From contig NC_135250.1 in NCBI RefSeq assembly GCF_964204865.1, forward strand, positions 6,696,001 through 6,760,000: a stretch of DNA of 64,000 nucleotides. Direction: 5' to 3'. Shown here piece by piece: positions 10,647 to 38,735 of the stretch (its first letter is position 1; each line of letters starts with the position of its first letter). Under the pieces are notes generated by a model. That model was not told the DNA's origin, searched no databases, and worked only from the letters and a program-made list of their open reading frames with translations. Made by a program: the position numbers and the translations under genes. Origin of the DNA: Styela clava (Eukaryota > Chordata > Ascidiacea > Stolidobranchia > Styelidae).

Positions 10647-11420
10647 TTATAGGCCATATCCTCCAGTGACTTCCAAGCATGCCCCATTTACGAACGAACT
10701 TTCTTCACATGCCAGAAATAAAATACAGCTTGCTACTTCTTCGGGCTTTGCTATTCTTTTCATGGGAATATCTTTTTCAAGAGAAGCAATATGGTCTTCC
10801 GGAAAAGTTTCGAGTAACGGTGTTTTAGTAGGACCAGGTAACACTGCATTGCAACGAACTTTATGCTGAGCATATTCTAACGCAGCAGTTTTAGTTAATC
10901 CAATTACCCCAAATTTAGAAGAACAATAACTCGACACTCCTGGGAATCCTTGTATTCCATACCGGCTCGATACATTGACTATGATTCCTCTGGTGTCCTC
11001 GTCGTCTCTGGATATTCCTAACGACATCATAAATTGCTTGCACATTATAAAGGTACCTTTCAAATTAACTCGAATGGTATCATCAAAAACTTGCTCTTCC
11101 GTTTCGCTGAGAAAACGTTGGGTTTGTGCGATGCCTGCACAGTTAATAAGCACAGTCACTTTCTTTCCAAGTTCTTCCTCAGCGGTCTTGAAGGCTTTTT
11201 GAACTTGATCAGATGAGGTTACATCAGCTTTAATGGAACAGTGTATGCAGTCTTGTTTACTGTCCATAAGTTTTATAGTCTCCGCGATTCCGTCTTGATT
11301 TGAATCCAAAACCGCAACGCTGCAACCTTCTCGGGCAAATACTTTGCAAACTGAGCGTCCTATTCCACTTCCTCCTCCAGTCACAATAGCAGCCTTCCCC
11401 GATAATCGATAAAGCGACAT
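10647..11420 (-). CDS. Classical SDR oxidoreductase, array member A (intronless)
   Basis: A single-exon frame of 257 aa. It has the classical SDR layout: TGGGSGIG dinucleotide-binding turn near residues 14-21, Asp in VAVLDSN (an acidic residue that favours NAD over NADP), DVTSSDQ, NCAG, a catalytic Ser in NVSS and YCSSK as the Tyr-x-x-x-Lys pair. It ends ACLEVTGGYGL. The family oxidises or reduces hydroxyl/keto groups; overall resemblance is to HSD17B8/FabG-like members, but the substrate is unknown. It is the most divergent copy and is transcribed away from the rest. A splice-acceptor-like TTTTCAG/ATT lies 40 bp upstream of the ATG (complement of 11461-11463), as in the other members. Confidence 0.9.
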   Translation of the reverse strand: MSLYRLSGKAAIVTGGGSGIGRSVCKVFAREGCSVAVLDSNQDGIAETIKLMDSKQDCIHCSIKADVTSSDQVQKAFKTAEEELGKKVTVLINCAGIAQTQRFLSETEEQVFDDTIRVNLKGTFIMCKQFMMSLGISRDDEDTRGIIVNVSSRYGIQGFPGVSSYCSSKFGVIGLTKTAALEYAQHKVRCNAVLPGPTKTPLLETFPEDHIASLEKDIPMKRIAKPEEVASCILFLACEESSFVNGACLEVTGGYGL

Positions 11421-11463
11421 TATAGGGCCTTAGGTTCAATTAAAGCTCTTGAATACGAATCTG

Positions 11464-12336
11464 AAAATGGAATTTAGATGTCTATTACATACACGTTTTA
11501 TATTTCATTTGCCATTCTATTACTTAAACTGGGGAGAACAAATTTAATATTCACGGAAAGAAGCGAATATAGTCGAAACACAAATACGTATGTAGGCTAT
11601 TGGGTTTAAACGCTTCACTGTCCAGCTCAAACAAACATCGCAAACTTACAGCGTGACTGAAAGAATTTCAAATTGTCAATATTTACTTGAGTGTATTGTC
11701 CACAAAAACAAATACATAATGCAATGCTGGACGAAAGTACAGGCCAAAAAAAAAATATTACAAACATTAATTGACATTGTATTAGAAAGAAACAAATCCT
11801 GAAAGTATTTGCTATACGTCATTTTGAACGTTTCGATTGTTGTATCATAAAAGCAACATTGCTCGCCATCATTGTTGAAGTTATTGGTTACGAAGTGGAC
11901 CCCCGGGTTATTTTGCTAATTTGTTGGGATCTTTTGTACGAAGCACCTGCCAAAAAAACACCCCTGCAACCGCTCAAAATAAAATAGTAATTATCCGGTT
12001 GGGGCTAAAAATGCAGATTGCTCTAAAAATTCAAATTTTTAAATCATTCCGAACCTTAACTAGATAGTTACTACCGGTAATTTTTTATTTTAAAACGTGG
12101 CGGGTGTGATTTCCTCAAATCTCGCATTTTTTCATTAGTGATGGGGGCTTTGTATAAAAGATCTATTTGTTGTTGATAATTGTGTTGTTTGGTGGTTGTT
12201 TCTGTGGTTCGTTTCTTCTGCAACTAATCGGAGTAAGTTCGTCCGTCTGTAAAGGCTGAAAATCCAAAACGATTCGCGTTTGTCCTGAAACATAAATTCA
12301 GAATTCACGGATGGCAAATTACATCACGCTCTAGAG
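11464..12336. other. Upstream region of SDR gene A, no gene seen
   Basis: AT-rich non-coding sequence between SDR A and the hAT-like element at 12337. It should include the promoter of A. No motif with support. Confidence 0.35.
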
Positions 12337-13978
12337 CAGTGGTTCTTAAACTTATTGAGCCTCGCCCCCCTTTGAAAAATTTTATGAACTTCGCGCCCCC
12401 CCCCCCCTCTTTTTGCTTTGAAAAAATGCTTTTGTAATGGGCAAGTTGCTTTATAATAAGATGGCGCTGTGAGAGTGTTGGTCTCATAGTGTCATTGCTC
12501 AGATTATTTAGGCATAAAACGCATCGGGGTACAATTTCGCCCTTCACTATCGTATGTATAAAGCAATACACAAATACTGGTCATCATACATTCTCTTTTT
12601 TCCGCTCAGGTTGCAATACCTGGTGAAGTCAACTTAAATTTTACGTAAAATTAAGCACGCAATAAACGTATGCTCTTTGCGTGGTATTTTCTGCATATAC
12701 GTTTACGACGGGTAAAATTTCAATCATTTACTTCACTATTGAGCAATGCACAAATAATTACTGTATGTTAAAAATACACAACAATTACAGACTTCTTGGC
12801 TTGCCTAACATCTCTAAAATTCACTACCAAAACCTTTGGACAACCACTAGGTCAAAAATACAGTTTACACAATGGAGAAGTGCAAATGAATTTATGTAGA
12901 TTTGTAGCATAAAAAAGCCGTTCAATTGTAAAAAGTAATTATGCATGTGGACTTTTCCCGGCCCTTGAGCGCTGAAAAATAAAGTCCCTAATGACGTTTG
13001 CGATTGCATTTTGTTTAAATGTCCGATTGTTTTCGCCCTCATTTCTCTCAACAAATATTTTGTGCCGCGAAGACATAATTACTTTTTGCGTTCTCGCACA
13101 CCTGTGGGGAAAACGAGTTAGTATTTAATATATAATCATATCAGCGACGAGATGCTAAAGATAGAATGAAGAAGTGAATCCGCAACCAAAAATTTCTTGA
13201 TGAAAAAAGCGGCATTATAAAATACTAAAACTAAAACGGAATACACCAACGGATTTTGTTATGGGATGGAACGCGAAAGTTCAAAAACACTTTCTTAGAC
13301 ATCGCAAATCTCGTATATTCCTTGTTCCCGCGGCACACCTGTAGTGTGGATAAAGCAACCATTTCAAATATTTATATCGATCATGGATTGAATGTTTTAT
13401 TTAACAGGAAAACCAATACATATCCGTTGAAAAAGTCGGCTATTTCAACGAGTGGTGTAATCTCAACAACTGACCCAGGAGCCGTACCACGGGTGTTATG
13501 GGGCGATGAATATGTATTTCTGATTTATTAATATACTTTATATGTAATTTCATTGTACTATATTGAATATATATACTTTTTGGAGATTTTATACCAGATC
13601 TTTCTAACGACAATAACGAATTTGCATGAGCGCAATATATATCAAAACTAAATATTGTCGGACAGTTGATTTCACATCCTCATGCCCAGGGATTGATGTG
13701 GTATTTTAGATCTGTAATGAGTTTATTCTGTCATGAGTCGTCGCAACCGCGAGCTACCTTGAACACAAATGAAGTAAAATAGAGAGACATTTCGAATTCT
13801 TGTAGTTGTTATAGATTGAATAATGCGGGACAAAAAAGGGGTATTATACCGCGAAAAATCAGGCATTTTTAACGAACCTAAGACCGTTTCAGGTGACGTT
13901 GCATGGAAACTTTCGATTCCATCTTGTGACCTCTCGCGCCCCCCAAGGGGGGCACGCCCCCCAGTTTAAGAACCACTG
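12337..13978. mobile_element. hAT-like non-autonomous element (family X), copy 1
   Basis: The left end CAGTGGTTCTTAAACTT and right end AAGTTTAAGAACCACTG-type inverse (AGTTTAAGAACCACTG, ending 13978) are the Charlie/MER5 style hAT termini. The flanks ctctagag / gtttagaa share a TAGA core, fitting a mutated 8 bp target duplication. The interior (about 12930-13540) resembles the interiors of the elements at 17334-18811 and 21916-23230. Shared phrases include GATTGCATTTTG, GTGCCGCGAAGAC and CGACGAGATGCTAAAG. A C-tract of about 11 lies at 12396. No transposase is left. Confidence 0.75.
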
Positions 13979-15362
13979 TTTAGAAAAGTAGATTCGTATT
14001 CTGCTTGTCCTATACCCCGTAATATCAGGAATTCGAAGGTTAAGATTAAGATGCCACATGTTTATATATCGTACAAGTCTCACAATCGAATTACTCCTAT
14101 GAGCAGATATTGAAATACACTTCAAACTTTAATACTAGTATACAGTTGAAATGAAATTTACGGCTGACAAAGAACATGCTGACAAAAAAAGCACTCTCGT
14201 CCGAAGGCCGAAAATGCGTCACCAATCTTCTCGGCACAAGCAACGTTGCATTAAGCTTGACGCGAGTAAATCACCAAAAAGGAAACGATATCAAAACGAA
14301 CGATATCAAATTCCCCGTGTTGGACATACTAATAATATAAAGGGTTTAAATAACATTAAAAAATTCACAATAACAAATATATACTCGCTACATCACAATT
14401 CAACTTCATATTCGTTTTTTCCTTTAACTTATGCTACATCCGTTAAAATTTGACCAATATACCCCGTATGCAACATGCCGGTGCTGAAGATCCAGACATT
14501 TTTTGTCTGATTGATAACTCATACTTGAGTCCTGGCCTCGTAGGCCAGAAGAAAATCCGTACCCGAAAATTGGAAACGGATGCGGATCGGAGATTCATTC
14601 ATGGCTGGCCGTGGCTCATACTCGATCACAACATCTTCGTGATTTCCGTGTTCTTTTATTTGAACATTACTTCATGCACGCACCGTTGACATACTTAAGA
14701 CGGATTCTCGAGGAAAGAGATACCAATCTATGGTGACATTGAGAGTTTCCAGCAAAAAGCTAGAGAAAGTGTTTTCACTAATATTGTTGTGTTGTTTGTT
14801 GTTGATTTCTTTTGTCTCCTTGAACTTTGATCGAAGCTGGTCCTAGATTACTGTTATTAAATTCCGTTTCTGCTTTCAAAATAAAATTGATAAAAAGGGC
14901 TAGGCCGCTATGGAATAAGAATATCCCTCCAACATTACATTTTTATTTGTCTTGAGATAGGCTCAGATTTCTACAGTAGATCAGGTACGATCCATGTTCC
15001 GTGTGTTTGCTGTTGAAAGATTTCTGGCTTCTTGTGCGAGCATTCGATGAGGCGTGTGCAAACTCCTGAAAGCATGTGAACTAAGCTGTTTGCAAACACT
15101 ACCATCAATCAGGTTTAAGCATCATGCACGCATCGTTGATTTAATTAAGACGGATGGAGAAAGAGATAACAATCTCTGGTGACCATGAGACTTCCCAGCA
15201 AAAATCTAGAGAAGAAAGTGTTTTCACTGATATGCAATTGTAATGAATGTGAACTAATAGCAACCGATGTAGACCACCTGTACATACATCATTGATCCAC
15301 TTACAGATGAATTCTATTGCAATTGAGTCAGGTTTAGAATTTCAGATTGGAAATAAATAAAA
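13979..15362. other. Intergenic with a repeated array-flank block
   Basis: No recognised gene. Two related stretches occur at about 14675-14780 and 15120-15230. Both contain TTAAGACGGAT, AAAGAGATA, CCAATCT or ACAATCTCTGG, and CCAGCAAAAA followed by CTAGAGAA and GTGTTTTCACT. The second, with 15000-15120 before it, is found inverted at about 28680-28860 and 36290-36475, upstream of SDR genes F and H. It is therefore a duplicated upstream block of the array rather than unique sequence. Confidence 0.55.
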
Positions 15363-15659
15363 ATGTCAGAAACTTTATTATTCGCTCCTTTTACCCAAAG
15401 AGTGTTGTTTGTGGAAATGATATCATACATTTTGATTATATACCCTACGATTACTTGTTGCGATAGCTATCGATCTCAAGTTCAGGATATATATGCAAAA
15501 AATGTAAATTGCAGCTGTTTTATCCACAGAGATTTATGCTTTTATTTAACTAAGTGTCATACATGGTTCACGAATAAATACTGTGTCGGAAAGTTATCAA
15601 GTTCAAATTGTTTCGTTAACTGCATCACGTCCTGCTTTGATATCGCAATGCCGACATAA
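15363..15659 (+). CDS. Hypothetical small cysteine-rich, possibly secreted peptide
   Basis: An open frame of 98 aa; a second in-frame Met (MISYILIIYPTIT) would give an 80-residue form with a hydrophobic leader. Ten Cys follow, as CC, CSC, DLC, TKC, KYC, SNC, VNC and TSC. The segment CSCFIHRDLCFYLTKCHTWF recalls endothelin-type spacing (CSC...C-x-Y...CH...W), but the inter-cysteine distances differ by one or two residues and no dibasic cleavage site precedes it. A TTTCAG/ATT acceptor-like site lies about 25 bp before the first ATG, as in the SDR genes downstream. Without homologues this could be a chance ORF. It lies 220 bp upstream of SDR gene B on the same strand. Confidence 0.3.
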   Translation: MSETLLFAPFTQRVLFVEMISYILIIYPTITCCDSYRSQVQDIYAKNVNCSCFIHRDLCFYLTKCHTWFTNKYCVGKLSSSNCFVNCITSCFDIAMPT

Positions 15660-15878
15660 CGAAAGCTTTATTACAGCAAATGCAGCAGAGCACTGAAGCT
15701 GACAATCGCTCAGTGATCTTACTGCCGGCAGTTAAGTAAGTTACTCGCATTATGCTATATACTCATACAAGATGCTTAGATTGAATAATAATGAAATATA
15801 AAAAAAAATTTACATTTAAAATGAGAATCGTTTTTTCAGATTTTAATTTAAATAAGAACGAATACGAATTTGATTACA

Positions 15879-16652
15879 ATGTCGCTCAGATTATCGGGAA
15901 AGGCGGCTATGGTAACTGGAGGGGGAAGTGGGATTGGACGATCGGTTTCTGAACTGTTCGCTAGAGAAGGTTGTAGTGTTGCAATTTTGGATCTAAACCA
16001 AGACGGGCTGGATGAAACATTAAAACTTCTTGATACGAACCATGGTAACGTACATTGTACAATCAAGTCCGATGTAAGCTCTTCCGATCAAGCAAAAGAA
16101 GCCTTCAAGACTGCCGAAGAAAAACTTGGGAAAAAAATTACAGTGCTTGTTAACTGTGCAGGAATAGCAACCACTCCATCTTCTTTTGACCAGATGGAGG
16201 AAACTGTCTTCGACGACCTTATTCGAGTTAATTTGAAAGGTACTTTCATAATGTGCAAGCAATTTTTGTTGTCACTGGAAAAGTTTAACACTAATTCCAA
16301 TGACACCCGAGCCACCGTGGTAAATATATCGAGCTCTACTGTCATCAAATGCGTAGCAGAAATGTCCGATTATATCGCTTCTAAATTTGGGGTCGTTGGC
16401 ATCACCAAAACCTTGGCTTTGGATTATGGAAAACATAAAGTTCGATGCAATGCAGTGTTACCTGGCCTAACTACAACGCCACTACTAAAGACGTTTCCCA
16501 GAGATTTTCTACAAGCGATTGAAGAGGGTATACCGATGAAAAGATTGGCAAAACCCGAGGAAATAGCAAAATGTATTTTATTCCTGGCATCTGATGAAAG
16601 TTCATACGTGAACGGGGCATGCCTCGAAATCACTGGAGGCTATGGTTTATAA
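15879..16652 (+). CDS. Classical SDR oxidoreductase, array member B (intronless)
   Basis: 257 aa starting MSLRLSGKAAMVTGGGSGIG. I chose the ATG at 15879 because it aligns with the start of every other copy; the frame is open only three codons further upstream. Motifs: TGGGSGIG 13-20, Asp38 after beta-2, NCAG 92-95, Asn118, Ser152 and Tyr165-IAS-Lys169, all intact. The C-terminus is ACLEITGGYGL. It should be a soluble NAD(H)-dependent oxidoreductase of HSD17B8/FabG type with unknown substrate. TTTTTTCAG/ATTTTAAT at 15831-15839 lies 39 bp before the ATG. The 3' tail has AATAAA at 16819. Confidence 0.9.
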   Translation: MSLRLSGKAAMVTGGGSGIGRSVSELFAREGCSVAILDLNQDGLDETLKLLDTNHGNVHCTIKSDVSSSDQAKEAFKTAEEKLGKKITVLVNCAGIATTPSSFDQMEETVFDDLIRVNLKGTFIMCKQFLLSLEKFNTNSNDTRATVVNISSSTVIKCVAEMSDYIASKFGVVGITKTLALDYGKHKVRCNAVLPGLTTTPLLKTFPRDFLQAIEEGIPMKRLAKPEEIAKCILFLASDESSYVNGACLEITGGYGL

Positions 16653-16751
16653 TTAACAGTGGGATGATATGCTGATTGGCATTCCAAAGAACTCACTAAT
16701 CATTGTCAATATTCTGCAATCATATGACTAAAATCATGTTGTGAATTGATA

Positions 16752-16781
16752 TATAATATGTATATATATATATATATATAC
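16752..16781. repeat. TA dinucleotide microsatellite
   Basis: An AT/TA run in the presumed 3' UTR of SDR gene B. Comparable TA runs are found at the same place in C (19975-19994) and E (about 24889). Confidence 0.8.
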
Positions 16782-16818
16782 ATACTGAATTTAGAAATTT
16801 GTTTACCGATACTGAGAG

Positions 16819-16824
16819 AATAAA
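16819..16824 (+). terminator. Polyadenylation signal AATAAA of SDR gene B
   Basis: AATAAA in the context GAGAGAATAAAATGTTT, 167 bp after the stop. The same context occurs after C (20036) and D (21680); after E it is changed to GAGAGCATAAAATG. Confidence 0.7.
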
Positions 16825-17333
16825 ATGTTTGATAATGTGAATGTATCTTTGAAAATTTTTGCGAAGGTAGGACCTCCTGAAACAAATCCTTTAGAGCTCA
16901 GTATAAGTGAATAATCCCCAATCATTCAAAATTTGTCCGAATTAAAGTTTTTAACAACGTTGGCTGTCAAACTGAAACTGGGGACATGTACCGTACGTTT
17001 CAGCCCACGTATATTTGGTCCTTCAACTTTACACCGATGAACGTTATCTATGGTACATTTACACACAGGGGCATCGGTACCAACGGGAATTGCACCCATA
17101 TATATTTGCATCGTATTAAATATATAAGCCGGCTGATCATTTTTTGTAAATTGTCAGAGCATAAGATATCTGAGCCAAACATTGATTGATATTTTTTATC
17201 ATCAGCGAGTTGATTTTAGCTTATTGGCCATTGAAGCCACGATTCAAAAAGACGAAAAACACAAATCTGATTAAAGATTTTTAAATAACTTGTTTCTGTC
17301 GTGGCTTTCGATTGTATATAATTCAGGGGTGCC

Positions 17334-19874: not shown

Positions 19875-20035
19875 TTTCCAGACGTAGAATCCGTCGATTG
19901 TCATTCCAGAGAACTCGCTATTCGTGCATTGTCAATAATTAGTAGTTATATGACTGAAATCATGTTGTGAATTGATATATATATATATATATATCAAATT
20001 CCAAACTTCAGAAATTTTTTAGCTGGCATTGAGAG

Positions 20036-20041: not shown

Positions 20042-20690
20042 ATGTTTAATAATGTGAATGTACGTATATATACTGTATTTGAAACATACTGCCGAGGAGG
20101 GATCGCCTAAGCAATACCAAATAAAGCTAAGTAAAAGTGTTTAATCTTCAACCATTCAATTTGCCCGAATTAAAGTTTCAATAATGTTGGCTATTGAACT
20201 GGCGATGGCGACATGGTCACCGTACCTTTTACCCTACGTACACTTGCTTATTCAACTTTGCACCAATGAACGTTAACACCGACAGACAGTTGTATCCATG
20301 TTTGCTTTAATCTAATGTACATTTGCACACAGGGGCATTGATGCCAACGGTAATTTGCGTCGTATTGAATACATAAGCGGGCTGGCATTTTTGAAAGTTG
20401 TTACAGCGTGAAGTATCTGATCACGATATAGCATTGTAACTTACGAGGTATTCTGTGCAGCTTGACTGAGAAACCTGACCACCACGCATTAGTCTAAATT
20501 CGGTATTGAAACTGAATTACAGTGAAATGAATTGTGCTTTGCCCAAAGGCGGGAACTTTTGAGTCTGTACTCTTGCAAATTGTATGTAGCTGTTGTACAG
20601 TCCACACGTAAGGATTTGATCACTATTCAAAGTTTCGAGGAAACGATAAATAAGATTAGACCTGAAGAATGTATATATATATATATATAG

Positions 20691-20754
20691 GTAACAAACC
20701 GATGTGATGGTTATAAATTTAAAATGAAGATCGTTTTTTTTCAGATTTTAATTT
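20691..20754 (+). promoter_or_regulatory. 5' UTR mini-intron or trans-splice acceptor region of SDR gene D
   Basis: GTAACAAACCGATG follows ...ATATAG, and the segment ends ATCGTTTTTTTTCAG before ATTTTAAT. It can be read as a 64 bp GT-AG intron. The same arrangement is seen at 33005-33057 (gene G), and in C with a disturbed donor. In B, F and H mainly the acceptor half is shared. If the host uses spliced-leader trans-splicing, the acceptor alone would suffice. All reading frames between the acceptor and the ATG contain stops, so it does not add coding sequence. Confidence 0.55.
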
Positions 20755-20778
20755 AAACGAATAAGATATTTTTGTACA

Positions 20779-21552
20779 ATGTCGCTCAGATTATCCGGAA
20801 AAGCTGCTGTTGTAACTGGAGGGGGAAGTGGGATTGGGCAATCGGTTTCTGAATTATTTGCTAGAGAAGGTTGCAGTGTTGCAGTTTTGGATCTTAATCA
20901 AGACGGGATGGATGAAACATTGAAACTACTTGATACGAACCATGGCAATGTACATTGCACAATCAAGGCGGATGTAAGCTCTTCCGATCAAGCAAAAGAG
21001 GCCTTCAGGACTGCCGAAGAAAAACTTGGAAAAAAAATTACAGTGCTTGTTAACTGTGCAGGAATTGTAACCACTCCATTTTCTTTTGACCAGATGGGGG
21101 AAACTGCCTTCGACGACGTTATTCGAGTTAATTTGAAAGGTACTTTCATAATGTGCAAGCAATTTTTGTTGTCACTGGCAAACTTTAATACCAATTCTAA
21201 TGACACCCGAGCAACCGTGGTAAATATATCGAGCCTTAATGGCGTAAAATGCGTAGCAGAAGCGTCCAGTTATGCTGCATCTAAATTTGGGGTCGTTGGC
21301 ATCACCAAAACCTTGGCTTTGGAATACGAAAAACATAAAGTTCGATGCAATGCAGTGTTACCTGGCCTAACTAAAACGCCACTACTAAAGTCAATTCCCA
21401 GAGATTTTCTACAAGCGATTGAAGAGGGTATACCGATGAAAAGATTGGCCAAACCCGAGGAAGTAGCAAAATGTATTTTATTCCTGGCATCCGATGATAG
21501 TTCGTACGTGAACGGGGCATGCCTCGAAATCACTGGAGGATATGGTTTATAG
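20779..21552 (+). CDS. Classical SDR oxidoreductase, array member D (intronless)
   Basis: 257 aa, MSLRLSGKAAVVTGGGSGIG at the start. Motifs: TGGGSGIG 13-20, Asp38, NCAG 92-95, Asn118, Ser152, Tyr165-AAS-Lys169 and ACLEITGGYGL at the end. The protein looks fully functional; it should be a cytosolic or organellar NAD(H)-dependent oxidoreductase of unknown substrate. D is the closest relative of the truncated copy G (33092). Their similarity extends from 20043-21398 to 32336-33711, including leader and upstream flank. A splice-acceptor-like TTTCAG lies 24 bp before the ATG. The upstream frame LITIQSFEETINKIRPEE has TTG in place of the ATG seen in E and G. Confidence 0.92.
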   Translation: MSLRLSGKAAVVTGGGSGIGQSVSELFAREGCSVAVLDLNQDGMDETLKLLDTNHGNVHCTIKADVSSSDQAKEAFRTAEEKLGKKITVLVNCAGIVTTPFSFDQMGETAFDDVIRVNLKGTFIMCKQFLLSLANFNTNSNDTRATVVNISSLNGVKCVAEASSYAASKFGVVGITKTLALEYEKHKVRCNAVLPGLTKTPLLKSIPRDFLQAIEEGIPMKRLAKPEEVAKCILFLASDDSSYVNGACLEITGGYGL

Positions 21553-24011: not shown

Positions 24012-24785
24012 ATGTCGCTCAGATTATCTGGAAAGGCTGCTGTTGTAACTGGAGGGGGAAGTGGAATTGGGCGATCTGTTTCTGAAATATTCGCTAGAGA
24101 AGGTTGCAGTGTAGCAGTTTTGGATTTAAATCAAGACGGGATGGAGGAAACATTAAAAGTTCTCGATTTTGACCATGGTAACACACACTGCACTATTAAG
24201 GCAGACGTGACCTCTTCCGATCAAGCAAAAGAGGCCTTCAAGAATGCCGAGGAAAAACTTGGTAAAAAAATTACAGTTCTCGTTAACTGTGCAGGAATTG
24301 CAACCAGTCCAAGTTCTTTTGACCAGATGAAGGAAACTCACTTCGACGACGTTATTCAAGTTAATTTGAAAGGTACTTTTATAATGTGCAAGCAATTTTT
24401 GTTGTCACTGGAAAACTTCAATACTAATTCCAATGACACCCGAGCAACAGTGGTGAATATATCTAGCATTGCTGGCATAAAAGGCATAGGAGAAATGTCC
24501 AACTATGTTGCTTCTAAATTTGGAGTCGTTGGCATCACCAAAACCTTGGCTTTGGAATACGGAAAACATAAAGTTCGATGCAATGCGGTCTCACCTGGCC
24601 TGACCACAACGCCAATACTAAAGGTGTTTTCTAGAGATTTTCTACAAGCGATTGAAGAGGGTATACCGATGAAAAGATTGGCGAAACCTGAAGAAATAGC
24701 GAAATGCATTTTATTCTTGGCATCCGATGAGAGTTCGTACGTAAACGGGGCATGCCTCGAAATCACTGGAGGATATGGTGTATAA
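24012..24785 (+). CDS. Classical SDR oxidoreductase, array member E (intronless)
   Basis: 257 aa, MSLRLSGKAAVVTGGGSGIG at the start, TGGGSGIG, Asp38, NCAG, Asn118, a NISS serine, Tyr165-VAS-Lys169 and ACLEITGGYGV at the end. All catalytic positions are intact. It is closest to pseudogenes C (shared GMEETLKVL) and I (shared ETLKVLD-type segment, SSIAGIKG and the VYK-type end GGYGV). The start is fixed by alignment with the other copies. The leader differs from D and G in having lost the TTTCAG site. The poly(A) context is altered to GCATAAAATG. Confidence 0.91.
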   Translation: MSLRLSGKAAVVTGGGSGIGRSVSEIFAREGCSVAVLDLNQDGMEETLKVLDFDHGNTHCTIKADVTSSDQAKEAFKNAEEKLGKKITVLVNCAGIATSPSSFDQMKETHFDDVIQVNLKGTFIMCKQFLLSLENFNTNSNDTRATVVNISSIAGIKGIGEMSNYVASKFGVVGITKTLALEYGKHKVRCNAVSPGLTTTPILKVFSRDFLQAIEEGIPMKRLAKPEEIAKCILFLASDESSYVNGACLEITGGYGV

Positions 24786-26097
24786 ATACAGACGTAGAAT
24801 ACGTCGATTGTCATTCCGGAGAACTCACTTATCGCTCATTGTAAATATTCTGTAATTATATAACTAAAATCATGCTGAGAATTGATGATATATATATATA
24901 CAGATATACTAAATTCAAAACTTTGGAAATTTATTTACCTGCATTGAGAGCATAAAATGTTTAGTAATATCAGTGTATACTGTATTTGAAACATACTGCA
25001 AAGGAGAGATCGCCTGAGTATAACCAAGTAGGGCTAAATACAAGTGATTAATCCTCGACCTCGACCACACAAAATTTGTCCGAATGAAAGTTTTTAATAT
25101 TGTTGGCTATCAAACTGATACTGGCGACATGTACCGTACGTTTTTGCCCACGTACATTTGCTTATACAACTTTGCACCAATGAACGTTAACACCCACAGA
25201 CAGTTGCATCCATGTTTGTTTTAATCTAATGTACATTAGCACACAGGGGAATTGGTGCCAACGGTAATTTGCGTCGTATTAAATACATAAGCGGGCTGGC
25301 ATTTTTTCAAACTGGATTTATTGAAACAATGGACAAAATGGCCACCAAGGCGCTGGCGAAATTAAACTTTTGACCAAGTTAATAAAATTAACAAGTTGAA
25401 ATTTTATTCTTTTATATAAGGCTGCTATGGAGGATATGGTTTATAGTTTACAGGGGGTGATATATATGCTGATTGTCATTCCAAATAACTCACTAATTGC
25501 GTATTATATTCAAAACTTTGGAAATTTGTTTACCAAAATTGAGACTTTATATATTGAGACTTTTACATACTGGTAGTTGCACCGTAACTATCACAATTAA
25601 ATGCATAGCTTTCGAGTTACATGATTGCACATGACAAACTGGTTGGAAAAGGAATATTGAATGAACCTAGATAAAAGATAATCAGCTTGGCCTGGAGAAA
25701 AGCTTGTTTATGAATGTTCATCGATCGGAGGCAAAGGGCATCGTGGTCTTCTCAACTGACGCAAAATATCATAATATGGATCTAAATATAAACCCCTCAA
25801 GCTAGGCTGATCTAAAGAAATGGAATTTTGTCAAAGACACGAATATTCGAATATTCTATTCAGCTCTCTTTGGTTTTGTTTAGGCAATCCACGCACCTTT
25901 CAGTTTTTTTTTTAAATATATATACATTTACTTCACTCAAGTATATATTTTATTATCCCAATGTCCGTGAATAAATTTATGACGTTTTGAATTTAGTATA
26001 TTATATTTATTCACAAGAAGTAGGCTATATAGTCCGGTAATTGCAGGAATGTAGGATATCGAAAATGAGTGTTTTGCACGTTCAATCTTCGTATAAA
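24786..26097. other. 3' flank of E and convergent region with F
   Basis: Non-coding. 24786-25320 is the shared 3' tail and flank of the array. 25418-25446 is a micro-relict of an SDR gene. From there to 26097 the sequence is repeated at 33870-34642 with few changes, so it is part of the F/H duplication. E and F are convergent across this interval. Confidence 0.65.
25418..25446 (+). pseudogene. SDR micro-relict (gene ends fused)
   Basis: AAGGCTGCT, from codons 8-10 of an SDR copy, is joined directly to ATGGAGGATATGGTTTATAG, the last codons of an SDR gene. More than 700 bp between them are missing. The same junction occurs at 33871-33900, so the deletion predates the duplication of this block. 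Confidence 0.75.
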
Positions 26098-26865
26098 TTA
26101 TGCACCTCCATTGATTTCGAGGCATGCCCCATTTACGAACGAACTTTCATCGCAGGCCAGGAACAAAATACATCTCGCTACTTCCTCGGGTTTTGCCATT
26201 CTTTTCATCGGTATCTTATCCATAATCGGTTGTAGAAAATCTCTGGAAAATCGCTGTATCATTGGTGTTAAAGTCGGGCCAGGTAACACTGCATTGCAAC
26301 GAACTTTATGTTTTTCATATTCCAAAGCCATTGTTTTAGTCATTCCAACGACCCCAATTTTTGAAGCAGTGTAACTTGTCTGTTCTGCTACGCATTTTGT
26401 GGCAAGAATGCTAGATATATTCACCACCGTTCCTCGGGTGTCATTAGAATTAGTCCTAAAACTTTTCAGTGACAACAAAAATTGCTTGCACATTATGAAA
26501 GTTCCTTTCAAATTAACTCGAATAGCGTCGTTGAAGACAGTTTCTTCCGTCTGGTCAAAAGAAAATGGAGCGATTGCAATCCCTGCACAGTTAACGAGCA
26601 CTGTAATTTTTTTTCCAAGTTTTTCTTCGGCAGTCTTGAAGGCCTCTTTTGCTTGATCGGAAGAGCTTACATCCGCCTTGATTGTGCAATGTACATTGCC
26701 ATGGTTCGTATCAAGTAGTTTCAATGTTTCATCCATCCCGTCTTGATTTAGATCCAAAATTGCAACACTGCAACCTTCTCTAGCAAATAATTCCGAAACC
26801 GATCGCCCAATCCCGCTTCCTCCTCCAGTTACAACAGCAGCCTTCCCGGATAATCTGAGCGACAT
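26098..26865 (-). CDS. Classical SDR oxidoreductase, array member F (intronless)
   Basis: 255 aa starting MSLRLSGKAAVVTGGGSGIG; NCAG, NISS and Tyr-TAS-Lys are intact. The C-terminus differs from B, D and E: ACLEINGGA then stop, caused by a small deletion in GGATATGGTTTATAA. Together with H it forms a subfamily with LACDESSF, LPGPTLTPMI and KIGVVGMTKT. It is in opposite orientation to B-E. An acceptor-like TTATCAG/ATTTTGAA lies 25 bp upstream of the ATG (complement of 26891-26893). The upstream leader keeps the ...AAATAAAGTTAGACCTGAAGAAG phrase in spirit but has lost the upstream ORF to stops. Confidence 0.9.
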   Translation of the reverse strand: MSLRLSGKAAVVTGGGSGIGRSVSELFAREGCSVAILDLNQDGMDETLKLLDTNHGNVHCTIKADVSSSDQAKEAFKTAEEKLGKKITVLVNCAGIAIAPFSFDQTEETVFNDAIRVNLKGTFIMCKQFLLSLKSFRTNSNDTRGTVVNISSILATKCVAEQTSYTASKIGVVGMTKTMALEYEKHKVRCNAVLPGPTLTPMIQRFSRDFLQPIMDKIPMKRMAKPEEVARCILFLACDESSFVNGACLEINGGA

Positions 26866-27529
26866 TGTACTTATTCGTTTTATTCAAAATCTGATAAAAA
26901 AAACATTCGCATTATAAATTTTCAGCTTCGCGCAGATTTTTTCTATAATTTCTATTTTTTCTATTTTTTCTATAATTTTCTATTCTCTTCTTCAGGTCTA
27001 ACTTTATTTATCGTTTTAATGAAACTTTAAGTTATTATCCTATCCGTTGTGTGTAGTTCGTAAGGCCGCTCACGTAGCAAAACGTGCTTTACATTCTAAT
27101 AATCATAAGCGCAAATAAACTATCTTAACATCGTCTCTATCGTTGACCACAATTCGCCCTTCAGGTATTTGGTGTGTAGAAAAAACACGACCAAGTAACA
27201 TAGCACAATATATTATAATATATATAAACAATCAAACGCCATGGCACAAAAAACGTATGTAATAAATCTCATACTTCGGTAACCATTTTGTACATTTTTC
27301 AAAAAATCAAACATCAAGTTACAAAACAGTACACGTATTTGTGCCTGGCAGAGAGAATGAAGCTAAAATGCACAAGAAATTGAAACAACAATGATGAACA
27401 AATATAAATCGTACCGACGGGTGATATATATGTATTGTGTTCTGTTCAGAATTTTGGAAGTACCCAGGTGCACGTCCTGTCAAACATGGAAATTTGCATG
27501 AGAATTACGGGTCGCTATACAACACCCAC

Positions 27530-28860: not shown

Positions 28861-28912
28861 AAAAAGGCGCGGATCTTGGATCAAGCTTGACAAATCCAAC
28901 CGTAGGTAGGCT

Positions 28913-31844: not shown

Positions 31845-31907
31845 CTAATTTTTTTCTCCAGGTCTAATTTTATTCATCGTTTCCTCGAAACTTGGAATTG
31901 TGATCAT
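31845..31907 (-). pseudogene. Leader-only SDR relict with intact upstream ORF
   Basis: On the minus strand MITIPSFEETMNKIRPGEKN then TAG, followed by GTAAGGTAGCAAGCCGATGTG. This is the SDR leader (compare GTAACAAACCGATGTG), but no SDR body follows. It shows that an array unit once stood here in reverse orientation and that its coding part was lost. Confidence 0.65.
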
Positions 31908-31924
31908 AATCTTGCGTGTAGATC

Positions 31925-32335
31925 AGGGTCGTCCAACCTTTTTGGCCGAAGGGCCACATGTATTTTACTAATAATTGCGCGGGCCACTTAACATGGCAGT
32001 TGTGTTCTAGTTTTGCCCCATTGACTACAGGTTAATGAAAAACCAAAAAATACCCTCACACTAAACTTTCACAATTATTAGAACAAGAAAACTGTTGTTT
32101 CCCGACCATTGATGAGGCGCCATCAGTGGTTATTCCCCAAAGTTTGGCCAAAGAAAAGCCATGCCGCTTTATCGTTTTCATCACAGCTTTCAACAAATCA
32201 ATGCCCATAGTTGTACCCTTAATTGGGACAGTGGCTGTGAGCTCTTCGGTAATTTCAAATCATCATAAACTACCCGCAAGAAGATCGCCAAGTCGCCAAC
32301 TGAGCTACGAGATAGCGATCAGAGACCGCCGACTG
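31925..32335 (-). mobile_element. hAT fragment with transposase remnant
   Basis: At 31926 the plus strand begins CAGGGTCGTCCAACCTTTTT, then GGCCGAAGGGCCACAT, a hAT-like terminus. On the minus strand about 32090-32250 reads EITEELTATVPIKGTTMGID, KAVMKTIKRHGFSLAKLWGI and TTDGASSMVGK. TDGA-x-SM-x-G is the conserved segment around the second catalytic Asp of ZBED5/SCAND3-like hAT transposases. The fragment ends abruptly at about 32335, where SDR array flank resumes. Confidence 0.8.
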
Positions 32336-32972
32336 TTTAATAATGTGAATGTACGTATGTATATAGAATTTGAAACATACTGCAAAGGAGGGATCGCCTA
32401 AGCATAACCAAATAGAGCTAAGTAAAAGAGATTAATCTTCAACCATTCAATTTGTTCGAATTAAAGTTTCAATAATGTTGGCTATTAAACTAGCGACATG
32501 GTCCCGTGCCTTTTACCCGAAGTGTATTTGCTTATTCAACTTTGCACCAATGAACGTTAACACCCACAGACAGTTGCATCCATGTTTGATTTAATCTAAT
32601 GTACATTTGCACACAGTGGCATTGGTGCCAACGGTAATTTGCGTCGTATTAAATTCATAAGCGGGCTGGCATTTTTAAAAATTGTTACGGCGTGAAGTAT
32701 CTGATCCCGATATAGCATTGTGACTTGCGAGGTATTCTGTGCAGCATGATTAAGAAATCTGACCACCACGCATTAGTCTAAATACGGTATTGAAACTGAA
32801 TTATAGTGAAATGAATTGTGCTTTGCCCAAAGGCGGGAACTTTTGAGTCTATACGCTTTCAGATTGTATTTAGCTGTTGTACAGTCCACGCGTCCAAGGA
32901 TATGATCACAATTCAGAGTTTCGGGGAAACGATGAATAAGATTAGACCTGAAGAAAAAATGTATATATATAT

Positions 32973-33005
<33 letters not shown>

Positions 33006-33711
33006 TAACAAACCGATGTGATGTTTATAAATTTAAAATGAGGATCGTTTCTTGCAGATTTCAATTTAAACGAATAAGATATTTTTGTACAATGTCGCTC
33101 AGATTATCCGGGAAAGCTGCTATTGTCACTGGAGGGGGAAGTGGGATTGGGCAATCGGTTTCTGAATCATTTGCTAGAGAAGGTTGCAGTGTTGCAGTTT
33201 TGGATCTAAATCAAGACGGGATGGATGAAACATTGAAACTACTTGATACGAACCATGACAATGTACATTGCACAATCAAGACGGATATAATCTCTTCCGA
33301 TCAAGCAAAAGAGGCCTTCAAGACTGCCGAAGAAAAACTTGGAAAAAAAATTACCGTGCTTGTTAACTGTGCAGGAATTGTAACCACTCCATTTTCTTTT
33401 GACCAGATGGGGGAAACTGCCTTCGACGACGTTATTCGATTTAATTTGAAAGGAACTTTCATAATGGGCAAGCAATTTTTGTTATCACTGGCAAACTTTA
33501 ATACTAATTCTAATGACACCCGAGCAACCGTGGTAAATATATCGAGCCTTAATGGCGTAAAATGCGTAGCAGAAGCGTCCAGTTATGCTGCATCTAAATT
33601 TGGGGTCGTTGGCATGACCAAAACCTTGGCTTTGGAATACGAAAAACATAAAGTTCGATGCAATGCAGTGTTACCTGGCCTAACTAAAACGCCACTACTA
33701 AAGTCAATTCC
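32336..33711 (+). repeat. Segmental duplicate of 20043-21398
   Basis: The two blocks align from TTTAATAATGTGAATGTACG to AAAGTCAATTCC, covering 3' flank of the preceding unit, leader with mini-intron and most of the SDR body (D versus G). The TA run in the leader is longer here (about 32958-33002). Confidence 0.85.
33005..33057 (+). promoter_or_regulatory. 5' UTR mini-intron or trans-splice acceptor of SDR copy G
   Basis: Counterpart of 20691-20754: GTAACAAACCGATGTGATG ... GATCGTTTCTTGCAG then ATTTCAAT, 34 bp before the ATG. The short length (53 bp) would suit compact-genome introns. Confidence 0.5.
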
Positions 33712-33718
33712 TTCATGA
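33092..33718 (+). pseudogene. SDR array member G, 3' truncated
   Basis: An open frame of 208 aa from MSLRLSGKAAIVTGGGSGIG to LKSIPS, with NCAG and Tyr165-AAS-Lys169 intact. It stops about 49 residues short of the family end. The 3' part of the gene was replaced by a piece of array leader (TTCATGATTGCTATCCG..., matching 23677 onward). The missing part is the last helix-strand unit that shapes the substrate pocket and completes the Rossmann sheet, so the product is probably not functional. The ORF would also be open upstream to 33038, but the aligned start is at 33092. Confidence 0.85.
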
Positions 33719-33850
33719 TTGCTATCCGTATATTTGCGTTTTCTCATATTTTCTGCACATCAAATGCCTGAAGGGCGAATTGCGAGCAGTAATCCAGAAG
33801 ACAAGATAATTCAGATCATTAATTTGCGCCGGTGTTTATTAACATGTACA

Positions 33851-33900
33851 ATGTCGCTCAGATTATCCGGAAAGGCTGCTATGGAGGATATGGTTTATAG
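33851..33900 (+). pseudogene. SDR micro-relict 2
   Basis: ATGTCGCTCAGATTATCCGG, then AAAGGCTGCT joined to ATGGAGGATATGGTTTATAG: the first ten codons of an SDR gene fused to its last codons. It is preceded by leader sequence fused at a shared TGTACAA. Same internal junction as 25418-25446. Confidence 0.8.
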
Positions 33901-36190
33901 TTTACAGGGAGTGATATACTGATTGTCATTCCAAATAACGTACTAATCGCGTATTATATTCAAAACTTTGGAAATTTGTTTACCAACATTGAGAATTTAT
34001 ATTAAAAAAAAAACACTGCGGAAAGAAGGGCTACTTAAACAAAACCAAAGAGAGTGAAATATACTTTGTAGCAGGGTATTTAACTCGTCGCTGGTGTTAG
34101 GTTTTTACATACTGGTAGTTACATCGTATATATTTTAACAAGCACAATTATAGCTTTTGAGTTACATGATTGCACATGACAAACTGGTTGGACAAGGAAT
34201 ATTAAGAACCTAGATAAAAGATAATCAGCTTGGACTTGTGAAAAGCTTGTTTTAGATGTCCATCGATCGGAGGCAAAGGGCATCGGGGTCTTCTCAACTG
34301 ACGCAAAATATCATATTATGGATCTAAATATAAACCCCTCAAGCTAGGCTGATCTAAAGAAATGGAATTTTGTCAAAAACACGACTATTCATTCAAATAT
34401 TCTATTCAGCTCTCTTTGGTTTGTTTAGGCAATCCACGCACCTTTCATTTTTTTTTTCAAATATATTTACATTTACTTGACTCAAGTATATATTTTATTA
34501 TCACAATGTCCGTAAATAAATTTATGACGTATTCAATTTAGTATATTATATCTATTCACAAGAGGTAGGCTATATAGTCTGGTAATTGCAGGAATGTAGG
34601 ATATCGAAAATGAGTGTTTTACCCGTTCAATCTTCGTATAAATTATGCACCTCCATTGATTTCGAGGCATGCTCCATTTACGAATGAACTTTCATCGCAG
34701 GCCAGGAACAAAATACATTTCGCTACTTCCTCGGGTTTTGCCATTCTTTTCATCGGTATCTTATCCACAATCGGTTGTACAAAATATCTGGAAAATTGCT
34801 GTATCATTGGTGTTAAAGTCGGGCCAGGTAACACTGCATTGCAACGAACTTTATGTTTTTCATATTCCAATGCCATTGTTTTTGTCATTCCAACGACCCC
34901 AATTTTTGAAGCAGCGTAACTCGTCTGTTCTGCTACGCATTTTGTGGCAAGAATGCTAGATATGTTCACCACCGTTCCTCGAGTGTCATTAGAATTAGTC
35001 CTAAAACTTTCCAGTGACAACAAAAATTGCTTGCACATTATGAAAGTCCCTTTCAAATTAACTCGAATAGCGTCGTCAAAGTTAGTTTCTTCCGTCTGGT
35101 CAAAAGAAAAATGAGCGATTGCAATCCCTGCACAGTTAACAAGCACGGTAATTTTTTTTCCAAGTTTTTCTTCGGCAGTCTTGAAGGCCTCCTTTGCTTG
35201 ATCGGAAGAGCTTACATCCGCCTTGATTGTGCAATGTACATTACCATGGTTCGTATCAAGAAGTTTTAATGTTTCATCCATCCCCTCCTGATTTAAATCC
35301 AAAATTGCAACACTGCAACCTTCTCTAGCAAATAATTCCGAAACCGATCGCCCAATCCCGCTTCCTCCTCCAGTTACAATAGCAGCCTTTCCGGATAATC
35401 TGAGCGACATTGTACTTATGTGTTTTTATTTAAAATCTGATAAAAAAAAACATTCTCATGTTAAATTTTCAGCTTCGCGCAGATTTTTTCTATAAATTTC
35501 TTCTTCAGGTCTAACTTTATTTATCGTTTTAATGAAACTTTAAGTTATGATCCTATCCGTTGTGTGTAGACCGTAGAGCCGCTTACGTAACAAAACGTGA
35601 TTTACATGCTAATAATCATTATCTTAACATCGTCTCTATCGTTGACCACAATTCTTCGTTTCGGTATTTGGTGTGTAGAAAAAACACGACCAAGCACAAT
35701 ATTTTATAATATAAACAATCAAACGCCGTGGCCCAAAAAACGTATGTAATAAATTTCATACTTCGGTTACCATTTTGTACATTTTTCAAAAAATCAAACA
35801 TCAAGTTAAAATACACGTATACACGTTGTGCCTGACAGAGATAATAAAGTTAAAAAGCGCTAGAAATTGAAACAAGAATGATGAGCAAATATAAATCGTA
35901 CCGACGGGTGATATATATGTATTTTGTTCTGTTCAGAATTTTGGAAGTAGCCTACCCAGGTGCACGTCCTGTCAAACTAGAATTGCACGGGATAAACGTA
36001 ACAAATGGTGTAGTAGCAGAAGCCTCATGTGTACCCGGAGGATTAAAATTCATAGAAACTTGCATGAAAATTACGGGTCGCTATACACTATACTTAAATT
36101 TTGATTATAGTAGCAAAGAATGAAGCTACTGGTTTTCATTCTATCCATTAAAGTGAAAGTGCTCATTTTTGAGGAAAAGCTTTCTACTTG
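33870..36190. repeat. Segmental duplicate of the 25418-28530 block
   Basis: Alignment runs from the micro-relict through the 3' flank, SDR H (versus F), its leader and upstream sequence, offset about 8.45-8.55 kb. The F block carries extra insertions at 27530-28434 and, just beyond, 28913-31090. Confidence 0.85.
34643..35410 (-). CDS. Classical SDR oxidoreductase, array member H (intronless)
   Basis: 255 aa, near-identical sister of F: MSLRLSGKAAIVTGGGSGIG at the start, NCAG, NISS, Tyr-AAS-Lys and the shortened end ACLEINGGA. Differences from F are scattered substitutions (for example IAHFSFDQTEETNFDD for IAPFSFDQTEETVFND and SRYFVQPIV for SRDFLQPIM). The frame is fully open, so both duplicates are probably maintained. 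TTATCAG/ATTTTAAA lies 26 bp before the ATG (complement of 35437-35439). Transcription is toward G, as F is toward E. Confidence 0.9.
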   Translation of the reverse strand: MSLRLSGKAAIVTGGGSGIGRSVSELFAREGCSVAILDLNQEGMDETLKLLDTNHGNVHCTIKADVSSSDQAKEAFKTAEEKLGKKITVLVNCAGIAIAHFSFDQTEETNFDDAIRVNLKGTFIMCKQFLLSLESFRTNSNDTRGTVVNISSILATKCVAEQTSYAASKIGVVGMTKTMALEYEKHKVRCNAVLPGPTLTPMIQQFSRYFVQPIVDKIPMKRMAKPEEVAKCILFLACDESSFVNGACLEINGGA

Positions 36191-37994
36191 CATGATAAAG
36201 CTTAGTCTTAGTAGAATCAGTACTACCTTTACCGGTAGTCTACATCGGCTGCCATATTAGTTTACATTGAACTTGCATTTTAGTTCCTGCGAGAAACTCT
36301 TAACTTTGCAAGAGATTGTTATCTCCTACCTCAAGAATTCAGTCCTAAATAAATCAACGGAGCGTGTATGACCAATTCGTTGGCAATGTTTGCACACAGC
36401 ATAGTTCACATTTTTACAGAAGTTTGCATTCGTCTCATCGAAATTTTGCACAGGAAACCACAAGTCTAAAAAGATGCGGATCTTGGATCAAGCTTGACAA
36501 ATCCAACATTAGAGTCTCTCTTAGTACAAACAAGTGAGCTATGCTAGACGTGAAAATCGCGCATCTGTACTGGTCAAGTGGCGGCCTGGTCAAGTGGCGG
36601 CCATGTTTGAATCGAGTCCACTCTGTCCTTATTTTCTTTGTACCCTGGAATCAAATATGTGTCAGCAATCGGAAAATTATGTCATTTGGGTTCATCAACA
36701 TCTCTATGTATATACAGATCATAATTCGTATGGATATGGGGTTTAAATTGGTGTTGTTTTTGGAGTTTCTGGAGTATGTGTACCAAGATGGCGCACAACC
36801 TGACCTGTTTTACATGTTAATAAACACCGGCGCGAATAAATGATCTGAAATCTTGTCTGAAACTGCTCGCAATTCGCCCTTCAGACATTTGGTGTGTAGA
36901 AAAAATGAGAAAACACAAAGAAACGGACATAGCAATCACGAATAACAGGACCAAATAACACACCGCAACATATTATATAATACAATCGAAAGCTACCACA
37001 GTTAATCTTTGATTAGATTCGTTGTTCGTGTTTTTGAATCGTAGTTCCACTGCCCAACAAGCTGAAAACAATTGGCTGATGTTCAAAAATATGCATCTTC
37101 TCTCAACTTATAATCAAAATTGTTTTGAAAATCCGAAATACAACATCATTTGAGTGAACTAAATTCAGATTTGACTAAAGGAAAGGATTTCAAGGAATCA
37201 AAAAAAAATCAAATTTTGGCTTGATTATTTTTTTACATTTTTTAACTCATAAGTTTAACTTCGCAAGTGCCTTAGTGGCCATTTTGTCCATTGGTTCATG
37301 AAATTCAATATAAAGTCGCAAAAATGTATATACGTGTGCTTTCAGTTGCCTAGATTCAATTACACAATGAAAACTGTATTTTTAGCGACGGCCGAATAAT
37401 CTTTCGCCGTATGTTCTATCAGTGATTTTTACTTTGGGATGCGATAAATTGTAAATGTGATAAAGTATAGACTCAAAAGTTCCCACCTTTGGACAGAGCA
37501 CAAATCATTTCTCCGTAATTCAGTTTCAAAACTGAATTTAGACCAATGCGTGGTGGCCAGATCTCGCAATCAAATTGCAGAGAATACTAGATAATACGAT
37601 ATTTGGCTCAGATGCGACTGCCTGTGGGTGTTAAGTAAAAGGTAAAGTGAAAGGAGCAAATGTACGTGGGCTAAAACGTACGGTACATGTCGTCATTATC
37701 AGTTTGATAACCAAGGTTATTGAAAACTTTGATTCGAACAAATTTTGAGTGGTCGAGGTCGAGGATTGATTACTTATACTTTGCTCTATTTGGTTATGCT
37801 AAGGAACCTCCTTCGCAGTATACATTCACGTTACTAAACATTTTATTCGCTCAATGCCGGCAAATTTTTGAAAGATTTGAATTTAGTATATATATCAATT
37901 CACAACATGATTTTAGTCATATAACTACAGAATATTGACAATGCGTGATTATTGAGTTCTTTGCAATGACAATCAGCATATCATCCCCTGTAAA
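35411..37994. other. Upstream block of H and 3' flank of pseudogene I
   Basis: No gene. 35411-36850 repeats the F upstream block. 36850-37994 is array 3' flank in inverse orientation (for example ACACACCGCAACATATTATA, GTGGTGGCCAGATCTCGC-type sequence and GGTCGAGGTCGAGG, inverse to 23640, 23400 and 25055). Short open frames here (36541-36843, 37720-37938) lie in these repeats and are unlikely to be genes. Confidence 0.55.
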
Positions 37995-38735
37995 TTATAC
38001 ACCATATCCTCCAGTGATTTCGAGTCATGTCCCGTTTACGTACGAACTCTCATCGGATGCTAGGAATAAAATACATTTCGCTATTTCCTCAGCTTTCGCC
38101 AATCTTTTCATCGGTGTACCCTCTTCAATCGCTTGTAGAAAATCTCTGGAAAACACCATTAGTATTGGCGTTGTGGTCAGGCCAGGTGCATGCATGGCAT
38201 CGAACTTCATGTTTTCCGTATACCAAAGCCAATGTTTTGGTGATGCCAACGACTTTAAATTTAGAAGCAACATAGTTGGACATTTCTGTTATGCCTTTTA
38301 TGCCAGCAATGCTCGATATATTTACCACTGTTGCTCGGGTGTCATTAGAAGTAGTGTTAAAGTTTGCCAGTGACAACAAAAATTGCTTGCGCATTATAAA
38401 AGTACCTTTCAAATTAACTCGAAAAATGTCGTTGAAGACGTTGAAGAAGAATGTTTCTTCCATCTGGTCAAAAGAAGATAGATTGGTTGCAATTCCTGCA
38501 CAGTTAACGAGAACTGTAATTTTTTTTCCAAGTTTTTCCTCAGCAATCTTGAAGGCCTCTGTTGCTTGACCTGAAGAGGTCACGTCCGTCTTAATAGTGC
38601 AATGTGTGTTACCAGGGTCAGAATCAAGAACTTCGGATGTTTCCTCCATCCCGTCTTAATTTAAATCCCAAACTGCTACACTGCAACCTTCTCTAGCGAA
38701 TAATTCAGAAACCGATCGCTCAATCTCACTTCCAT
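37995..38735 (-). pseudogene. SDR array member I, multiply disabled
   Basis: Closest to E (SSIAGIKG, GGYGV-type end). Defects: the first ~16 codons are deleted, so that leader AATAATTTAT runs straight into GGAAGTGAGATTGAG (TGGGSGIG reduced to GSEIE). CAA is changed to TAA in LNQDG. There is a 9 bp expansion at EETFFFNVFNDI, a frameshift after VRCHA near 38190, and TGC changed to TGA in NGAC near the C-terminus. NCAG and Tyr-VAS-Lys survive in frame. The damage is spread over the whole body, so this is an old inactive copy at the right border of the array. Confidence 0.93.

Follow-up and report, generated by a model that had tools for sequence, protein, structure and literature searches.

A 28-kb array of genes for short-chain dehydrogenases/reductases (SDR) lies within a 64,000-nucleotide stretch of the Styela clava genome (positions 6,696,001–6,760,000 of contig C1, in an assembly of 376.6 Mb and 379 contigs; hereafter, the window). 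Of its nine members, which lie in both orientations, six have open SDR frames (A, B, D, E, F and H) and three are broken (C, G and I). The array is one cluster of a larger family of the HSD17B8 type, and it is in this scale, and in the timing of events, that our reading mainly departs from a preliminary description of the same DNA. We consider it likely that the whole is a local cluster of the HSD17B8 branch, duplicated in blocks and partly converted, whose copies are diverging at the substrate pocket. Two observations are new here: part of the coenzyme-binding 5′ half of the gene was exchanged between copies by gene conversion, and the 3′ half is diverging, with a few codons at a ratio of nonsynonymous to synonymous substitution (omega) above 1. 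It is this contrast within the gene, with conversion in part of the cofactor half and divergence in the substrate half, that deserves following up.

Composition of the array

The six open copies run from ATG to stop in the list of open reading frames (ORFs) and encode 255–257 residues each, with no intron in the coding sequence of any of the six. A tblastn search with the products of the open frames located nine bodies between 10,650 and 38,733, in the order A(−) B(+) C(+) D(+) E(+) F(−) G(+) H(−) I(−), and found no further match at an E-value of 1e-3 elsewhere in the window. A nucleotide profile of the duplicated unit, built from B, C, D, E, F and H, recovered all nine bodies and, in addition, relict pieces at five further places. 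The six intact single-exon frames and three broken bodies of the preliminary description are thus found again, while its three minor relicts become relict pieces at five places. Identity to protein B is 89 % for D, 88 % for E, 83 % for F, 82 % for H and 67 % for A, and the other eight copies matched B in the genome search at E-values of 5e-150 to 4e-79, far from chance. The features, in window coordinates, are the following:

10647–11420, minus strand: SDR copy A, open, 257 residues; basal in the array, 67 % identical to B
15879–16652, plus strand: SDR copy B, open, 257 residues
19128–19874, plus strand: SDR copy C, broken by stops and a frame change; tip omega 0.92
20043–21398: block covering most of D plus upstream sequence, duplicated (92 %, direct) at 32334–33711 with G
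20779–21552, plus strand: SDR copy D, open, 257 residues; converted tract in common with F
24012–24785, plus strand: SDR copy E, open, 257 residues; CAC and CATAAA in place of the polypyrimidine-CAG and AATAAA of other copies
25427–25632, plus strand: tail relict of another unit, between E and F (nucleotide profile)
25561–27485: block with F, duplicated (90 %, direct) at 34103–35977 with H
26098–26865, minus strand: SDR copy F, open, 255 residues
31780–31992, minus strand: leader-like relict (nucleotide profile, 5.9e-17)
32334–32581, plus strand: tail relict upstream of G, within the block common to the upstream side of D (nucleotide profile, block comparison)
32334–33711: block with G, duplicate of 20043–21398
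33092–33718, plus strand: SDR copy G, truncated; 97 % identical to D across the shared part
33713–33956, plus strand: second unit, collapsed and fused to G (a piece of leader, the first eleven codons and a piece of tail, joined at short repeats; three adjoining profile hits)
34103–35977: block with H, duplicate of 25561–27485
34643–35410, minus strand: SDR copy H, open, 255 residues; duplicate of F
36784–36953, minus strand: leader-only relict between H and I (nucleotide profile)
about 37995–38733, minus strand: SDR copy I, broken and without its first codons; tip omega 1.2; sister of E

The array had been called young, which suits D and G (97 % identical) and F and H, with a synonymous divergence (dS) of 0.12, and does not suit A, at a dS of 1.1–1.5 to the others.

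Protein family and predicted activity

Pfam assigned A and B to the SDR family (PF13561/PF00106; PF13561 E-values of 1e-54 and 6.5e-55, respectively), and for all 25 NCBIfam families shown, of 223, both scored under the curated cut-off (for example FabG, 213.5 and 205.2 versus 296). The best solved relative of B was Estradiol 17-beta-dehydrogenase 8 (7.2e-47; next other molecule, 3.1e-39), as it was for a profile of the six copies (2.8e-57; next, 1.2e-49), and this protein, HSD17B8, ranked first among all 591 and 650 PDB sequences matched by B and by the profile, respectively. HSD17B8 is represented by PDB entries 2pd6 and 4cql, of human origin.

The six open copies all keep TGxxxGIG, N118, S152, Y165, K169 and PG, as the preliminary description had stated of the catalytic motifs of intact members; by the usual SDR alignment, N118, S152, Y165 and K169 are the catalytic residues. 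All six also carry Asp38, an acidic residue after beta-2, and such a residue goes with a preference for NAD. From Asp38 and the catalytic Asn-Ser-Tyr-Lys, each open gene is predicted to encode a NAD(H)-type oxidoreductase, and its substrate would be a hydrophobic alcohol or ketone, for example a 3-oxoacyl or hydroxysteroid-like compound. HSD17B8 has 3-oxoacyl-ACP (acyl carrier protein)/hydroxysteroid activity in a mitochondrial complex with CBR4; it is a single housekeeping gene in humans, and the branch is usually seen as conserved fatty-acid machinery. It is the nearest solved relative and the tree partner of the window copies, with the same catalytic residues and the same Asp after beta-2, whereas it differs from them in being, in human, one gene with several coding exons, against at least 29 uninterrupted genes here, and in sequence, the window copies being 40–42 % identical to it.

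Selection, gene conversion and fast sites

Pairwise omega ranged from 0.16 to 0.44 across the 15 pairs of open copies. In branch fits with stop and gapped codons masked, the tips of C, G and I had an omega of 0.86 versus 0.24 for the rest (2ΔlnL 25.2, p 5e-7), and a three-class fit gave 0.20 for the open tips. Taken singly, omega was 0.92 for C, 1.2 for I, 0.49 for G (G versus the rest, p 0.40) and 0.17–0.37 for B, D, E, F and H; for tip F on the 3′ half the fit ran to its bound (54.6, p 0.12), a value that we took as noise on a short branch. The broken copies evolve near-neutrally and the open copies under constraint, so that values near 1 for all copies, a check proposed in the preliminary description, were not seen (0.20 in open versus 0.86 in broken copies).

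Copies D and F are identical at 26 consecutive polymorphic sites (columns 123–232), with a p of 0.0005 that is the floor of the 2000 shuffles used to assess the best run of the 15 pairs. Further identical runs were found in D and H (p 0.0095) and in E and F (p 0.04); like the D-F run, both are in the 5′ half, and no other pair gave p < 0.05. The synonymous difference between D and F is 0.107 in codons 1–95 versus 0.250 in codons 96–258. The 5′ half rejects the tree of the 3′ half (approximately unbiased, AU, test, 0.0014), and the 3′ half rejects the tree of the 5′ half by AU (0.039) but not by the Shimodaira-Hasegawa (SH) test (0.056); the whole-gene tree had AU values of 0.035 on the 5′ half and 0.16 on the 3′ half.

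Site models for codons 96–258 of the six copies favoured a class with omega above 1 (M1a/M2a, p 2.1e-4; M7/M8, p 1.7e-5; M8 versus M8a, p 1.2e-5). The p of M1a/M2a was 4.4e-4 without A, 1.6e-4 without A on another tree and 3.0e-4 without A and the C-terminus, and in 48 null sets simulated under M1a for B, D, E, F and H the statistic never reached the observed 15.45 (largest, 7.76). Sites with a naive posterior above 0.5 were 110, 153, 154, 162, 166 and 205 in six copies, and 110, 162 and 205 without A. Most of them neighbour the catalytic Ser or Tyr or belong to the loop that follows the PG motif, positions that would line the pocket in the general SDR fold. Variable residues were also concentrated: in B, D, E, F and H, 28 of 71 fall in the 44 of 257 positions (p 3e-8) that make up regions 152–169, 198–217 and 252–257, which include five of the six fast sites; the C-terminus alone (252–257) has four variable positions in six (p 0.051).

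A comparable distribution occurs in Nasonia, where the neighbouring classical SDR genes NV10127–NV10129 are 88–98 % identical and thought to come from duplication (PMC6344473). Differences among their products cluster in the active site, in a stretch starting 33 residues downstream, and elsewhere, for example at the C-terminal end; two active-site changes make NV10129 behave like NV10128, and six C-terminal changes raise epimerisation by NV10127 7-fold (PMC6344473). The Nasonia cluster resembles the window array in that differences gather at the active site, a downstream stretch and the C-terminus, and differs from it in belonging to another SDR branch, likened to that of 15-hydroxyprostaglandin dehydrogenase, in having three genes and in having been assayed enzymatically (PMC6344473).

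We compared these results with an array on contig C6, formed by nine genes (L037, L039–L043 and L054–L056; C6:10.77–10.83 Mb) and several broken pieces. Omega is 0.33 for the nine genes, and the site models gave them no class above 1 (M1a/M2a, p 1). As on C1, variable sites gather in the three regions (29 of 100 versus 17.1 expected, p 6.6e-5) through 198–217 (15 of 20, p 7e-4), with p values of 0.11 for 152–169 and 0.16 for 252–257 taken alone. The 198–217 loop varies in both arrays, and an excess of change is seen only on C1. Where the C1 copies have Asp38, all nine C6 copies of the tree carry Gly-Arg, which at that place points to NADP(H) by the usual SDR rule, and a switch to NADP(H) is predicted for the C6 array.

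Several points weigh against the reading preferred here. The whole-gene tree is not rejected on the 3′ half (AU 0.16), and SH does not reject it on the 5′ half either (0.23); the C6 array lacks the fast class, which is therefore no general trait of the family; the site posteriors are naive empirical Bayes values from five or six sequences; the borders of the three regions were chosen post hoc, with the data and the Nasonia results already known; site 110 lies outside them; and mean omega in codons 151–215 is 0.39, below 1. Moreover, in Nasonia most transfers of active-site residues to NV10127 did not raise epimerisation (PMC6344473). The small number of sequences, the segment mean below 1, the presence of conversion and the lack of a fast class on C6 would also suit fast sites produced by relaxed constraint, or by gene conversion and multi-base changes, instead of positive selection. 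We regard this as possible, although unlikely: the test was restricted to the 3′ half, whereas the significant conversion runs (D-F, D-H and E-F) are in the 5′ half, and its result withstood a change of tree, the removal of A and the 48 null simulations.

In the explanation that we prefer, repeated copying of DNA blocks, in both orientations, multiplied a gene with an uninterrupted coding sequence; a number of the copies broke and are drifting, and the open ones remain constrained. The coenzyme-binding 5′ half was partly exchanged by conversion and the 3′ half diverges, with a few codons faster than neutral. Duplication may have let these NAD-type reductases take on different substrates, as in the pheromone SDRs of Nasonia. 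Both the substrate and the role of the array enzymes are inferred; for a part in specialised metabolism or detoxification, suggested in the preliminary description, the site tests lend indirect support in the C1 array and not in the C6 array. More speculatively, and with rather less confidence than doubt, HSD17B8 could have turned into about thirty uninterrupted genes in clusters that differ in predicted coenzyme, with the C1 copies driven apart at the pocket and conversion maintaining likeness in parts of the coenzyme half: a modular enzyme repertoire for the chemistry of the animal itself (defence, signalling or detoxification).

The family in the genome and the age of intron loss

Protein B had 87 matches in the genome at E-values up to 1e-3. 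We counted as family members those spanning from residue 5 or before to residue 254 or beyond, without stops and with at least 47 % identity, a rule that makes every counted gene one open frame and would leave multi-exon relatives outside. By this rule the family has at least 29 full-length genes, of which C6 and C17 carry nine each, C1 seven (six of them in the window), C3 two, and C10 and C16 one each; partial and broken members lie beside them. The expansion proposed in the preliminary description is in this way confirmed within this genome. Three of the C17 genes (L025, L027 and L029; C17:10,777–10,786 kb), with nearly identical proteins and a spacing of about 3.7 kb, form the youngest-looking cluster of the family. 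A scan of the genome contigs also gave five loci at 29–34 % identity, which were not used further.

With HSD17B8 as the query, the best match was the uninterrupted gene at C16:12,983,827–12,984,573 (L044/L038), with 49 % identity; this gene is probably the conserved orthologue of HSD17B8. We constructed a tree with the 29 family genes, 2pd6, four PDB chains that we take to be bacterial and four other SDRs of the genome, leaving out six members that are partial or broken (C17_14516, C1_16038, C6_10787, C17_14507, C3_6841 and C17_14525), window copies C, G and I, and the short C6 pieces. The 29 genes joined HSD17B8 with 98 % ultrafast bootstrap and 95 % SH-aLRT. The C16 gene branched first and the window copies formed one clade (100 %) with A basal, while the order among most clusters was weak (35–88 %).

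Thirteen more distant SDRs (27–36 % identical to B) also match over nearly their full length in one frame, indicating that uninterrupted SDRs are common in this genome and no mark of the array; a multi-exon SDR would give only piecemeal matches in such a search. Because 29 members on six contigs are uninterrupted, including the C16 gene nearest to HSD17B8, the coding introns were probably lost before this array existed. This modifies the earlier suggestion that a single retroposition lay behind the loss of introns: loss of the coding introns, by whatever route, probably predates the array. A retroposed founder, followed by duplication at the DNA level, would account for the uninterrupted coding sequence, and the count of 29 admits only full-length single-frame matches, with about a dozen partial matches outside it. 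Even so, we judge such a founder improbable, given that the loss is most simply older when all 29 genes, including the first to branch, lack interruptions.

Acquisition of the family from bacteria by gene transfer would likewise explain the lack of coding introns, and 20 plasmid-borne SDRs, 37–39 % identical to B, are listed out of at least 5000 records. This origin is nevertheless very unlikely, as HSD17B8 heads both sets of matched PDB sequences, shares 49 % identity with the C16 gene and groups with the family in the tree, albeit with only the four presumed bacterial chains for comparison.

Duplication at the DNA level

Unit alignments extended homology upstream to −736 in D/G and −620 in F/H, and downstream to about +1130 to +1300 in several pairs; in B/E it continued until +1167, with the poly(A) signal near +940. 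The AATAAA is common to B, C, D, F, H and I, whereas A has its own and E reads CATAAA. Shared sequence runs at least 200 bases past the AATAAA common to most copies and, in several pairs, over hundreds of bases upstream of a splice-site-like tract in the leader. The borders of the copies consequently do not coincide with mRNA ends, and in both block pairs the duplicated blocks carry flanks beyond the transcript together with neighbouring relicts. Since the copies remain alike beyond their poly(A) signals and within leaders that resemble introns, copying occurred at the DNA level; this duplication history is well supported, and the preliminary description was right to prefer segmental duplication over repeated retroposition. 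In a search with the DNA unit of D, which scores only the best candidates, matches outside the array were short and confined to coding parts of relatives.

The end of G bears the same signature: leader, tail and the first eleven codons of another unit, all as fragments, are joined there at short repeats, a structure that arose by DNA-level duplication followed by deletion. We considered these pieces as an insert of spliced cDNA and rejected it, because the joins, judged by eye, lie at short repeats and deletions fit better. In the flanks of F and H, segment 28598–28900 pairs with 36205–36507 and segment 31104–31398 with 36513–36803; these pieces adjoin in one place and are 2.2 kb apart in the other, which suggests an insertion or deletion after the F/H duplication.

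Were each copy an independent insertion of processed cDNA, the open copies would lack coding introns, as they do, and the homology of B to other copies, which begins only at about −70, would find an explanation; the sequence shared beyond AATAAA and upstream of the leader tract, and the relicts brought along with the blocks, make this highly improbable. An assembly artefact, whether from alleles left uncollapsed or from repeats joined wrongly, would suit the likeness of F to H and of D to G, but it is the least credible reading: the block pairs differ by 8–10 %, the copies lie in both orientations in a window without N on a 32.7-Mb contig, and the genome searches (protein B; D unit) returned no further near-identical copies among their matches.

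Predicted 5′ untranslated intron

A polypyrimidine tract ending in CAG is located 28–43 nt before the ATG in A, B, D, F and H, and C and G have a similar tract, while E has CAC at the position of the CAG. Donor-like GTs, seen by eye only, are present upstream in A, B, D, F and H. The tract may correspond to the 3′ end of an intron in the 5′ untranslated region, in which case a non-coding first exon would be spliced about 25–40 nt upstream of the ATG; the term intronless, used in the preliminary description, holds, on these data, for the coding part alone. Trans-splicing was also considered for this tract. Among other family members, tracts before the ATG vary in strength. Copy E, with an open frame and a tip omega of 0.21 together with CAC and CATAAA, may be losing expression or using other sites.

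Relation to other SDR clusters

Tandem clusters of SDR genes are found in fish, with 8–14 copies of dhrs11-a in cichlids (PMC8073704). They share with the window array the tandem expansion of one SDR in one lineage and differ in concerning other SDR families, hsd17b8 appearing 0 times in the main text of that paper (PMC8073704). A possible retrogene origin is mentioned for human SDR7C4 and SDR42E1, of other families (PMC9859523). Among the titles listed in the literature searches, none concerned an expansion of HSD17B8. As tandem SDR expansions are already known (PMC8073704, PMC6344473), the array by itself is ordinary; what would matter is a block-by-block duplication history tied, in the HSD17B8 branch, to a split gene with a partly exchanged cofactor half and a diverging substrate half. 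The short list of codons makes the role of pocket changes in enzyme diversification testable on natural pairs, such as D and F.

Other features of the window

Outside the array, exons of a proteasome beta-2 gene are situated near 6.1–7.1 kb, and exons with sushi, EGF and ephrin-receptor-like domains, perhaps from one gene, at 39.6–44.9 kb. Two weak Dynein_C matches, under the Pfam cut-off, occur at 56.2–57.1 kb, and a search of the window against Rfam, at gathering thresholds, returned nothing. A 252-base direct repeat (1–252 and 589–840) has 99.2 % identity, and two inverted pairs of dispersed repeats, 6680–6842/45075–44907 (82 %) and 31549–31730/62280–62120 (77 %), are perhaps mobile elements.

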